A stretch of DNA of 64,000 nt from a candidate division SR1 bacterium Aalborg_AAW-1 (GTDB taxonomy: Bacteria > Patescibacteriota > Gracilibacteria > Absconditabacterales > Absconditicoccaceae), in NCBI GenBank assembly GCA_001007975.1, contig CP011268.1, positions 930,001 to 994,000 on the forward strand, given 5' to 3'. Every line of letters starts with the position of its first letter. Positions within the stretch are counted from its first letter, which is position 1. Under the pieces are notes generated by a model. It did not search any database and was not told where the DNA came from. It saw nothing but the letters and a program-made list of their open reading frames with translations. Positions 1,666 to 39,962 of this stretch are shown piece after piece. Both the position numbers and the translations under genes were made by a program.

Positions 1666-2847
1666 TTATGGACATAATGTAGTCGTTCATCACTGTTGAG
1701 GGGCATCAGTATATGGTCCACTTGTAGATGGTGATGTCCATCACTTAGATGCTAAGTAACTACAAAACTGTCATGGTAAGCTTGTTAAAGCATTGTTTGA
1801 TAGATTTAATGTTTGGAGATTGGTTGCAGATGGGTTTGCTATGCTAAATGATGTGAGATTATTATTTTGTAATAAAATCCAAGCTATATTAGGCATATGA
1901 GTTGGTAGTTGTATTGATGTAATATCATTATTTTGAAGGTCTATTTGAATAAGATTAGGCATTGTACTTGGAAGTGAAACACTAACAATATTATTATTTG
2001 AAAATCAAAGTGTTGTAAGTTGTGAAAAATTTGATGGCATAGATATTGATGTAAGATTACTATTCATAATATATAATGAATTCAAATTGGTGAGTTTCCA
2101 TATCCCACTAGGTATTTCTGTTATTGATTTTCACATCCAAAATATTCGATTTTGACTACACCAAGAATTGATAGTTCATCATGGATTTCAATCAATAGTA
2201 TTTAATTCTTGCACTTCTTGTGCTGTAAGATTTTCTTGACACCACGTAGTAGGATTTCCTGTACCATCTCGTCAATTTGATACGCTAATGCTTGTGTTAA
2301 TAGACCATTTTAGTCCTTGACCTACCTTTTCGAAAGCACCATCTTTGTTTTTATCAATAGTATCGCCACAAGCACTTGCATTACCTTTTTTAGATTCTTT
2401 GGTAGAAGTGATAGCATACAGAGAGCCAGCAAGATCGGTATAGTAGGCATAAGAATTGCCAGCCGTGATACATTCACCTGAAGGTGATGACTTTATACCA
2501 GATCAATTTGGATCCTGAGGTAAAGAAGTCAGATATGATGATATCAACGTTGATATATCATTCAATGAACTACCAACTGTTTGAGCAAAAGTTGTAGGAA
2601 TTACTATGTCAGTAAGTCTTCGAGGTGATGATGTAGAAGCATATACAGCAATAGGATAAGTATTATTATCAATTTTGTATGATTCAAGAGCTGTAGAAAC
2701 GTTACGCATATCAGCAGTACGAGCAGTATCACGAGCACGAGCTTGCATACCAGTAAGTCTAGGAATAAGAGCAGCTGCAAGTATTCCGATAATGACAATG
2801 ACGATCAGCATTTCTACAAGGGTGAAAGCTCAAGTTTTTTTAATCAT
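1666..2847 (-). CDS. Type IV pilin/pseudopilin with C-terminal leucine-rich repeats
   Basis: A 393-residue protein. The N-terminus MIKKT-G-AFTLVE followed by a hydrophobic helix (MLIVIVIIGILAAALIP) is a classic class III prepilin signal. The glycine before the cleavage site is a TGA codon (2830-2832), so standard translation misses the signal. A pilin-like globular region runs to about residue 200. Then come at least five leucine-rich repeats (LxxLxxxNNxLTSxxLP pattern, about residues 260-375) and a short Cys-containing tail. Prepilins are cleaved and methylated by PilD and built into pili or secretion pseudopili. The LRR cap suggests a binding tip or shaft adhesin (inference). It is monocistronic with its own terminator and divergent from the P-type ATPase. 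Confidence 0.85.
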
Positions 2848-16403: not shown

Positions 16404-16575
16404 TAAGCATGAAGACATTAAGCATTAAATATTAATGAATCAACAGTATAGAAAATATCAGCTTAAAAGCAATGGTAATAATAAAAACATAAAATGTCTT
16501 GCAATCATATATATATTATTCATAGTATGGTGTATACTGTCCGACAAAAAATTTAATACTGGACAGAAAATAAAA

Positions 16576-17142
16576 ATGAAAAAAACAATTTTTTTCGCAA
16601 GTGTATTGTTAGTGAGTAGTATGTGTACTATTATGTCATGTTCTAGAGAAGATGATGTCAGTGAACCACAATCTATGAGTGTTGAAAAATTGGAAAAACA
16701 AAGAGATACTGATCGTACCAATTATGTTAATTCAATTAAAATAAATCCGATTATTAATACAAATATTAATGCAAGGACAACTCAAAACTTTTCTGGGACA
16801 TTACCAAATGGCAATGACAAACAAAATGTACAATTAGGATCTACAAGTTGGATTGGCTCTTTTACATTTGGTTATTCAGTGAAAGTAACAAACTCTTCGT
16901 CCTCAAAAGCCCAATTAAACTTTGCTTTGTATGGAGTAACGAGTGGTGGTAGTAAATCTGTTATTGGCTCTTGGAAAAATGATATTCCAGCAGGAGGATC
17001 AAAACAGATTGATATTTCCAATACTACTGCTATTTTACAAAAAACTCAGTATAGTTCATTATTGGTTGTTGTGGAAAACGATGGTTGGTGGTTTAATAGT
17101 AATATACCAGTATATTATACTGTAACCTATACTAAGAATTAA
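16576..17142 (+). CDS. Secreted lipoprotein, Bacteroidetes-like (no TGA)
   Basis: A 188-residue predicted lipoprotein. The signal MKKTIFFASVLLVSSMCTIM is followed by lipobox Cys and SREDD, the acidic +2/+3 context common in Bacteroidetes surface lipoproteins. The rest is rich in Ser/Thr/Asn with beta-like segments (WIGSFTFGYSVKVTN, SLLVVVENDGWWF). All glycines are GGN, none TGA, unlike its neighbours. The upstream in-frame ATG at 16435 is unlikely because it would bury the signal. It stands alone, divergent from idi, between the two carotenoid operons. No family recognised. Confidence 0.7.
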   Translation: MKKTIFFASVLLVSSMCTIMSCSREDDVSEPQSMSVEKLEKQRDTDRTNYVNSIKINPIINTNINARTTQNFSGTLPNGNDKQNVQLGSTSWIGSFTFGYSVKVTNSSSSKAQLNFALYGVTSGGSKSVIGSWKNDIPAGGSKQIDISNTTAILQKTQYSSLLVVVENDGWWFNSNIPVYYTVTYTKN

Positions 17143-27670: not shown

Positions 27671-28597
27671 TTATGGTAATATAAATTTAATAGATTTTCC
27701 TCATTTAGAATATGGTTTGCTATCTATACCATTAGCAACTCATCCTGCATATTTGGTACGTCATGGAGTTATAATATAACTTACTTTTCATCATCATATA
27801 CCTATCGCTCATGCATGAACTGCTGCTTTGCAGAGTTTGGAGCTTGCTCGATATTCACCAACTCATCGAATATTACCTCCTGCCTGTGTATCAGAAGCAC
27901 TACAGTTACATGATTCTGTTGTTCATATGGATCAGCCATTTGCATTTGGTTGACAATCTGATAGTGTTACAGGTGGTGGTGTGATTGATCATGTATCTTG
28001 ATTTCCACTATTGATTATAATGGTGTAATTCTGATTTTGCTTAATTTGTTCATCATACTCTTTATAAATTTCTCCATTATAAAGCATATATCCATAGTCC
28101 AAAACTGTTCCCCAATCATATCAAGGACATTTTGCAAATGGATACGCTACAGCTGATTCTAGCTGGGTAACTCATATGATTGCATAATTTGAAAATTTAC
28201 AATCGTAAATACTATTAAGATTAGAACCAGTATAATTATAATATGCATACATTTTAGCTATTCTTTCTGCTCACATGATCCAAGGATTACCTCCAAAAGT
28301 ATTTTTAGGATCTATAGGAATTTGTTTGAGATATCATCACAGATTATGTAACCAATTTGTGTCTGTACTTACTTCTCGATTTGCTGCATCAGGATTTGGT
28401 TCATGAAGAGGATATATATGATTATCTAAGTAATACATGGTGAGTCCTACTCATAGCTCTCTTATATTGCTAATTCTTTGTGTATCTAAAGCTCTTTCTT
28501 TCATAGAACTAATTTTTGGTGCTATAGAAACTCACAATATTCATAATATTGTTGTTACAATAAGTATTTCTATCAGTGTGAATCCTTTATAAGTCAT
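27671..28597 (-). CDS. Type IV prepilin-like protein with C-terminal LCCL domain
   Basis: 308 residues. MTYK-G-FTLIEILIVTTILGILG is a prepilin signal (cleavage after Gly 5). The middle (about 30-215) is a pilin-like domain with YPL and repeated GxxxxxY segments. The C-terminal ~85 residues match an LCCL domain: C-N-C-SASDTQAGG, then I-W-GVGEY-W-ASSKLCKAAVHAG (both W are CGA), then GGGKVSYIITPGR and YAGGVANGIDS. LCCL domains bind lipids or other ligands and are best known from eukaryotic proteins such as factor C and cochlin. I infer a surface adhesin. Confidence 0.85.
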
Positions 28598-31130: not shown

Positions 31131-31172
31131 AATGTGTGTTAATTATTCTCTTTTAAATTTTTAAGCTAGTAA

Positions 31173-32111
31173 TCAATAACCCCAATAGTAGTTTAAATTT
31201 TCTTTATCACAAGATGTAAAATCAGAGAAAGTTGTGGTCGAAGACATTCCTGAATACATAAAAGAATTAAAATTAAACCATTCATTACATGTAGAACCTG
31301 TATTAAATATAGTTGTACTATTCACAGAACTATCTGTATGCATAAAACCAACAGCATGTCCTATTTCATGAATTAATGCGTATTTTTTTGCATTAACATC
31401 AGCAGCTGGATTAGCACTATTGTTAATTACAATTTTCTCAGAAAAGTATCCCGGAGATTTAATTGGCTCTGTCCATGCAAAAGCAAAAGAATCATTAAGA
31501 TTCGCCATATATACATTAATATAACCACCAACAATGTTAGTATTGGTAGCATCTACTATTTTGAACTTTACTTTTAAACCTCGAGCATTCCATACTGCTA
31601 ATGCTTGTTTTAAAGCATTCTTCCACTCTGTATTTAATCCTGCAGTACCACTAGTGATGACTCTACATGTAATAGTTCCTCCAGAAGAATCATACATATG
31701 CGCTTGTCGCTTCATACGAGATTGTGCATTTGGATTTGATTCTATTAGTTTTTGAAGATCAGTTCTACTAATGCTTTCATAGTCATATGATGAATTCGTA
31801 TGTTTATAAGGTGGTATCATATAGTATTCTTCATGATTAGTATTTGTTATTTCAGGATTTTCCTGAAAGAAAATACGATCTTTACTATACTGCAACCACC
31901 TTTTATACGTACTGTCAGAGATTATTTTATTATCTCTCATATAATCAATTTCTTTTTTAATTTGAGGATCAGAAATAGCTAACTCTTGATTTGTTATTAT
32001 TTCCTCTAATTGTCTATTGTTTTCATCATCATTGTAACATGATGTAACTAGAGATAGAGGAAGAACGAATAAGAGTATAATAATAGCTGTTCGTAGAAAA
32101 GTTTTTTTCAT
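31173..32111 (-). CDS. M57-type zinc metalloprotease lipoprotein, imported-looking, TGA-terminated
   Basis: 312 residues to the TGA. A lipoprotein signal ends LVTSC followed by YNDDENN. The C-terminal domain has the zincin motif HEIGHAVGFMHTD and NSFMYSG, as in the Bacteroidetes dual-action HEIGH peptidases (M57). No in-frame TGA interrupts the gene, but the natural end is TGA (31173-31175) after YYWGY. If TGA is Gly here, reading runs on through Leu-Leu-Ala to TAA at 31161. The start ATG 32111 follows AAAATTT. CGA codons (WNA-CGA-GLK) read well as Arg. Probably acquired from a Bacteroidetes donor. Confidence 0.82.
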   Translation of the reverse strand: MKKTFLRTAIIILLFVLPLSLVTSCYNDDENNRQLEEIITNQELAISDPQIKKEIDYMRDNKIISDSTYKRWLQYSKDRIFFQENPEITNTNHEEYYMIPPYKHTNSSYDYESISRTDLQKLIESNPNAQSRMKRQAHMYDSSGGTITCRVITSGTAGLNTEWKNALKQALAVWNARGLKVKFKIVDATNTNIVGGYINVYMANLNDSFAFAWTEPIKSPGYFSEKIVINNSANPAADVNAKKYALIHEIGHAVGFMHTDSSVNSTTIFNTGSTCNEWFNFNSFMYSGMSSTTTFSDFTSCDKENLNYYWGY

Positions 32112-32396
32112 AAATTTTGTTTTTGAGTTGTTAATAAATTTGTTGTTTGTTCGTGTGTTTTTCATACTAAGAGAAATGTTTAAATGTTGTTTAATGAATA
32201 ATAAGAATGTTGATTAAGAAATAAAAGAGAATTTTTGACACAAGAGCTAGTATACGAAAATCGAAAAAAAAAAAAGCAAGTCAATTTCTATAAGATAAGT
32301 TATTGATATCTTTTTTCAAAAATTATCCTTTGAAATCTCATGTTTGATCAGTATAGATAAAAGAGATGATTTATTTTGTGTATAGTGAATAAGAGA
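32112..32396. other. Intergenic region between divergent M57 and LCP genes
   Basis: 285 bp, AT-rich, including a run of 12 A (32265-32276) and a small hairpin AAGATA ... TATCTT followed by T (about 32291-32316). No gene or RNA recognised. Promoters for both flanking genes must lie here. Confidence 0.4.
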
Positions 32397-39542: not shown

Positions 39543-39962
39543 ATGAAAAAAATCTTATTGATGTTACTTCTAGTGACGCTTATGGTCCTTTATTCTTGTG
39601 ATCGAAATGAGGATTGTATAACGACAACAGTTGCACCGCTTTTCTATAAAGCGATGCCAGGATCATCAGAGCGATTTGGTGGTCAACTCTCTATCTATGG
39701 ATTAGATTATGTAGATCCACTTGATATAGATGTAAATTATTATCGTATTGATTTTAAAAATGCCGATGTAATTTATATCCCGTGGAATGAATTTATGATC
39801 CTACGTGATCCTACATTCAAGGATAGGCTTGCATTTGAAATCGTTGGACCACCTGTTACTACCTATACAGGAAGACCAGTATCTCACATTCGTACTATTA
39901 CAGTACAGTGTAAGATTAAATCACATGACTATTTGACTCAAAAAATTACAAAAAACTTTTAA
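39543..39962 (+). CDS. Bacteroidetes-like lipoprotein (no TGA)
   Basis: 139 residues. Signal MKKILLMLLLVTLMVLYSC with lipobox Cys 19 followed by DRNEDC. The mature part is beta-rich (ERFGGQLSIYGLDYVDP, VIYIPWNEFMIL). CGA codes the residue in SC-D-CGA-NED, where Arg is natural. All glycines are GGN. Looks like a flavobacterial surface lipoprotein; function unknown. Confidence 0.6.
   Translation: MKKILLMLLLVTLMVLYSCDRNEDCITTTVAPLFYKAMPGSSERFGGQLSIYGLDYVDPLDIDVNYYRIDFKNADVIYIPWNEFMILRDPTFKDRLAFEIVGPPVTTYTGRPVSHIRTITVQCKIKSHDYLTQKITKNF

Follow-up and report, generated by a model that had tools for sequence, protein, structure and literature searches.

A prepilin-LCCL fusion, putatively a modular type IV pilin, in the recoded genome of an Absconditabacterales bacterium

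Modular pilins combine an N-terminal pilin motif with a C-terminal domain that is not specific to pili; PMC8179133 counts over 1,200 of them, in 264 architectures, and places IPR026906 prepilins among the 15 commonest. According to the main texts of PMC8179133 and PMC9934059, the vWA module of PilB and the lectin module of PilC from Streptococcus sanguinis bind host ligands, and LCCL was not found among the modules named there. A full-text literature search for 'LCCL' with 'pilin' gave a single paper, which judging from title and abstract deals with something else. The TM7x minor pilins PilX1 and PilX2 carry extra C-terminal domains, and deletion of pilX2 reduces binding to the host (PMC12206443). 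Attachment by type IV pili has been supposed for Vampirococcus, a predator among the Absconditabacteria (PMC8080830). As for the LCCL domain, that of Akhirin binds E. coli, and bacterial binding by the cochlin LCCL domain is cited in the same paper (PMC12839204). Studies of cochlin mutants showed that LCCL alone did not bind glycosaminoglycan (PMC9987951), suggesting that LCCL is not a universal binder.

In the window, i.e., the whole 64,000-nucleotide stretch of DNA that was analysed, an earlier note based on the letters alone had described a prepilin with a class III signal fused to an LCCL-like domain. Its coordinates proved correct, all sequence motifs that it quoted are present, and both Pfam families fall within one open frame, with N_methyl and TIGR02532 above their cut-offs. 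The gene and its parts are as follows:

27671..28597, minus strand: LCCL pilin gene, 308 aa, start ATG, stop TAA
28583..28597, minus strand: class III leader peptide MTYKG (N_methyl; TIGR02532 above cut-off)
28028..28597, minus strand: GspG/PilA-like pilin module, about aa 1-190 (partial GspG match, ~55 bits)
27959..28027, minus strand: linker including TPPP, about aa 191-213 (drawn from sequence and low pLDDT to residue 204; boundaries approximate)
27674..27958, minus strand: LCCL domain, aa 214-308, with four cysteines (C215, C230, C232 and C256)
27866..27868, minus strand: CGA codon at W244, where 88% of 113 LCCL domains have Trp

The frame is open from ATG to TAA with table 25 and CGA/CGG read as Trp, and it contains 19 TGA (Gly) and three CGA (Trp) codons, all in-frame. 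The earlier note's view of the genome as recoded is supported. In Absconditabacteria, TGA encodes Gly, and CGA and CGG are assigned to Trp by computational prediction (PMC8629427). The table 11 list of open reading frames holds nothing of at least 60 aa at this locus, and a standard table-11 annotation would overlook the gene. The LCCL match is independent of the choice of code, because a six-frame search reading through stops also detected it (34.4 bits, E 1.8e-8); the same search of 14 control genomes gave no match. The claim that the domain is hidden unless both TGA and CGA are recoded thus stands for TGA, where read-through is required, but falls for CGA, whose recoding is unnecessary in this search. 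The CGA at W244, in a conserved Trp column, supports the assignment of CGA to Trp, while the second CGA within the domain (W250) is uninformative on the code, nearly all other LCCL domains having Thr there. Of the 18 Gly codons in the LCCL part, 10 are TGA, as are 9/18 in the remainder of the protein, suggesting that neither half is new to the recoded system and that the LCCL part is read with the organism's own code and is not fresh DNA. The gene is flanked by rRNA-methyltransferase and Cu-oxidase_4 (PgeF-type) genes, both on the opposite strand, and is solitary, lying outside any pil operon. Matches in promoter and terminator scans did not exceed the chance level, and PADLOC gave no match.

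The N-terminus shows all elements of a class III prepilin signal, namely a leader ending in Gly, a following Phe, Glu at +5 and a hydrophobic helix; cleavage is predicted before F6, so that the mature protein would begin with FTLIE and continue as the FTLIEILIV helix. Pfam N_methyl (PF07963) matched residues 3-24 above its cut-off (25.7 bits, E 8e-6). The pilin module resembles GspG and geopilin in a PDB search (5wda, E 2.9e-9), although the GspG equivalog TIGR01710 scored 55.2 bits against a cut-off of 88.85 and the T2SSG Pfam match was below threshold. The module's helix and 'YL..IP.DP' region also align with those of the remaining prepilins in this genome. The globular pilin part was modelled by AlphaFold2 with low confidence, so we infer rather than read from the model that the protein is assembled into a pilus. 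Judged by its sequence, the protein is a modular pilin in the sense given above.

The C-terminal part of the product is a true LCCL domain. Pfam LCCL (PF03815) matched residues 223-299 of the recoded translation with 45.6 bits (E 8e-12; cut-off 22.6), and in the PDB sequence search cochlin 1JBI was the sole LCCL match (E 4.5e-6 for the whole protein, 5.9e-7 for the domain alone). The AlphaFold2 model, built from an alignment with 60 LCCL rows, has pLDDT mostly above 90 from about residue 221 to 308; among PDB structures it most resembles 1JBI, the LCCL domain of cochlin solved by NMR (Foldseek E 6.2e-6), on which residues 207-308 superimpose over 94 residues at 2.3 A (Z 11.9). The profile search and the model check that the earlier note proposed therefore both came out in favour of LCCL, and the cysteines whose loss it would have counted against the domain are all retained. 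A chance motif match as the source of the LCCL call was ruled out by Pfam, the read-through search and the structure match. The four cysteines fit the C...CxC...C pattern, which is typical of one class of LCCL domains in bacteria; of the 52 bacterial domains that have the last Cys, the LCCL pilin's own included, 44 have an upstream CxC and 45 have at least three upstream Cys. According to a conservation profile built from 58 proteins and the alignment, the core residues G245, Y249, S253, A259 and H261 are retained, and two strongly conserved positions are replaced (T250 by W, D252 by S). The next-best fold matches after cochlin are yeast SIN3/HDAC complex subunits. The Rxt3 profile also matches the LCCL domains of 47/50 bacterial LCCL proteins, which, along with the SIN3/HDAC fold likeness, hints at a common origin with LCCL.

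The earlier view that LCCL domains are rare in bacteria did not hold up, since a pattern-based scan of 84,980 species genomes located relatives at no fewer than 52 loci in at least eight phyla; they are rare solely among relatives of the source genome (2/380 genomes of the phylum, 2/353 of the class and 1/49 of the order). The matches listed come from Pseudomonadota, Myxococcota, Spirochaetota, Verrucomicrobiota, Planctomycetota, Bacillota, Cyanobacteriota and Fermentibacterota. Apparently all of the listed proteins are secreted or surface-located, with N-termini like ordinary signal peptides or lipoproteins and frequently two or three LCCL copies, and no prepilin form was seen among them. Lectin-like, Ig, M57 peptidase and TIR domains occur among their partners, and the prepilin motif was absent among the 25 partner families listed, a list that leaves out three rarer families. 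TIR_2 was matched by 2/50 bacterial LCCL proteins, and two Denitromonas proteins (L052 and L053) have N-termini that are TIR-like by appearance, followed by three LCCL domains.

Closer to the source, a full-length query of 48 genomes of the order recovered no orthologue of the fusion, and the LCCL profile found nothing beyond the source genome in the class and phylum samples except in one relative (G234), which has a non-pilin LCCL protein. The latter (locus L016) lies on a GC-rich contig in a Patescibacteria assembly, and its LCCL domain groups with a Verrucomicrobia domain, so contamination or transfer is possible. Further searches of class genomes gave no match and are of little weight. Plasmids and phages gave no match; in viral contigs, an LCCL protein that is not a pilin was encoded at four nearly identical loci. 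In the LCCL tree, which was used solely for the four-cysteine grouping, the domain of the LCCL pilin falls among four-cysteine bacterial domains, weakly supported and on a long branch, with too few columns.

The genome is a single contig of 1,044,756 bases and encodes 12 prepilins above the N_methyl cut-off plus two weaker ones, T2SSE (PilB/PilT-family ATPase) matches above cut-off at four loci (two at ~E 1e-105), and one prepilin peptidase. Pilins with varied C-terminal domains, which the earlier note had proposed to look for in related genomes, were found within this same genome, where the recoded translation revealed four more prepilins ending in leucine-rich repeats (LRR):

1666..2847, minus strand: LRR modular pilin, 393 aa (LRR_4 1.7e-16, LRR_8, N_methyl 2.1e-6)
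about 591.9, 607.7 and 736.2 kb on the genome's contig (G000:C1): three BspA-type LRR_5 modular pilins

The three outside the window have LRR_5 E-values of 4.7e-51, 1.5e-18 and 6.2e-43; the one in the window, modelled without an alignment, gave moderate repeats and a poor pilin part. A common pilin module is found in all four, from which that of the LCCL pilin is divergent. No full-length pilin-LRR fusion was found among the other 48 genomes of the order. In a related genome (G415, contigs C1, C4 and C11), about 30 clustered BspA-type LRR matches were observed, none seen fused to a prepilin. With LRRs on the other four, the cell probably displays several binding modules via one pilus system, and the five modular pilins together resemble a kit of interchangeable adhesive tips with which the cell could take hold of others. 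Five such proteins in a 1.04-Mb genome suggest that pili may serve as an adhesin display system in this lineage.

Three lipoprotein-like genes in the window differ from most of their neighbours in the near-absence of TGA among their Gly codons:

31161-32165, minus strand: lipoprotein-like gene with an M57 metallopeptidase (TGA in 1/14 Gly codons)
16435-17142, plus strand: lipoprotein-like gene (TGA in 0/14 Gly codons)
39543-39962, plus strand: lipoprotein-like gene (TGA in 0/6 Gly codons)

They may have come in recently from a bacterium with the standard code, perhaps a host (Bacteroidota-like by eye). A search of plasmids with the M57 peptidase gave no match.

With little better than even confidence, we favour the LCCL pilin as a putative modular type IV pilin that displays an adhesin for the surfaces of other cells. 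The single prepilin peptidase would cut its leader, the protein would be built into a type IV pilus as a minor subunit at the tip or in the shaft, and the LCCL domain, held outside the cell, would bind a component on another cell's surface, likely when the cell first meets a host or prey bacterium. The fusion, the modelled LCCL fold and the pilus machinery genes are supported by the sequence; display as an adhesin is suggested by modular pilins, TM7x PilX1/PilX2, the pili of Vampirococcus and the LCCL domains of Akhirin and cochlin. Because animal LCCL domains bind bacteria directly, bacterial envelope material is our leading guess for the ligand. The source cell is probably host-dependent, an attached or predatory life being suggested by its clade (genetic code), and host recognition, as proposed in the earlier note, is plausible by analogy. 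A fuller picture, tentative and on the whole somewhat unlikely, is that of a host-dependent Patescibacteria cell with pilins of differing folds (LCCL and two kinds of LRR), of which the LCCL one recognises the envelope of bacterial prey. If true, this would give a bacterial LCCL domain a known role for the first time, mirroring the animal LCCL domains that bind bacteria in defence. Host choice by ultrasmall episymbiotic bacteria is still poorly understood, and a defined, separable binding domain on a pilin makes it directly testable.

Instead of binding a host receptor, the protein might, as a pilin or pseudopilin, work at the surface of its own cell or attach to a polymer, either soluble or part of a matrix (in feeding, biofilm or cell-cell stalks). 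This has some chance of being right but is rather unlikely in our judgement: the pilin module is nearest to GspG (55 bits; 5wda, E 2.9e-9), and bacterial LCCL proteins are common secreted proteins of free-living groups, yet the GspG score stays under the equivalog cut-off of 88.85, other pilins of the genome are GspG-like as well, and the remaining modular pilins bear typical binding repeats. It seems very improbable that the LCCL part has no function and is simply carried along, or that the gene is a fusion in decay. Although the fusion was seen in a single genome and has lost the conserved T250 and D252, its frame is open, the four cysteines and the five core residues listed above are retained, the LCCL fold is modelled confidently, and codon use is adapted to the organism's own code.

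In ComZ, an extra module helps a competence-type pilus to hold DNA, and the LCCL domain could help such a pilus in this way, feeding nucleotides to a cell unable to make them. We regard this as improbable: we know of no DNA-binding role for LCCL, the extracellular bacterial LCCL proteins among the matches listed give no pointer to DNA, and the related fold in SIN3/HDAC complex subunits, which might be taken to favour the idea, demonstrates no function. In its favour, Absconditabacteria are thought to import host DNA via pili and ComEC (PMC8080830).

The LCCL pilin compares with known systems as follows. Like S. sanguinis PilB and PilC, the LCCL pilin has a class III leader, a pilin module, a short linker and a C-terminal domain that is not pilus-specific, but its module is LCCL, whereas theirs are vWA and lectin adhesion modules. 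Like PilX2 of Nanosynbacter lyticus TM7x, it is a Patescibacteria pilin, presumably minor, with an additional C-terminal domain; however, PilX2 carries a beta-propeller and lacks a predicted PilD signal, while the LCCL pilin has an LCCL domain and a clear class III leader. With the cochlin/Akhirin LCCL domain (1JBI) it has the fold and Pfam family in common at about 30-40% identity, but cochlin and Akhirin are innate-immune or matrix proteins of animals and not pilins. The nearest sequences among the matches listed are four-cysteine bacterial LCCL proteins (e.g., L049, L054, L055 and L059), with 38-51% identity and the C...CxC...C pattern in common; these are signal-peptide- or lipoprotein-like, often with two or three LCCL repeats, and none was seen with a prepilin leader. 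Prepilins with IPR026906, which we take to be the BspA-type LRR, follow the same idea as the three LRR_5 pilins of this genome, with a C-terminal fold that differs from LCCL. Modular pilins are already known as a kind, and the LCCL pilin fits best among them, as a new architecture.
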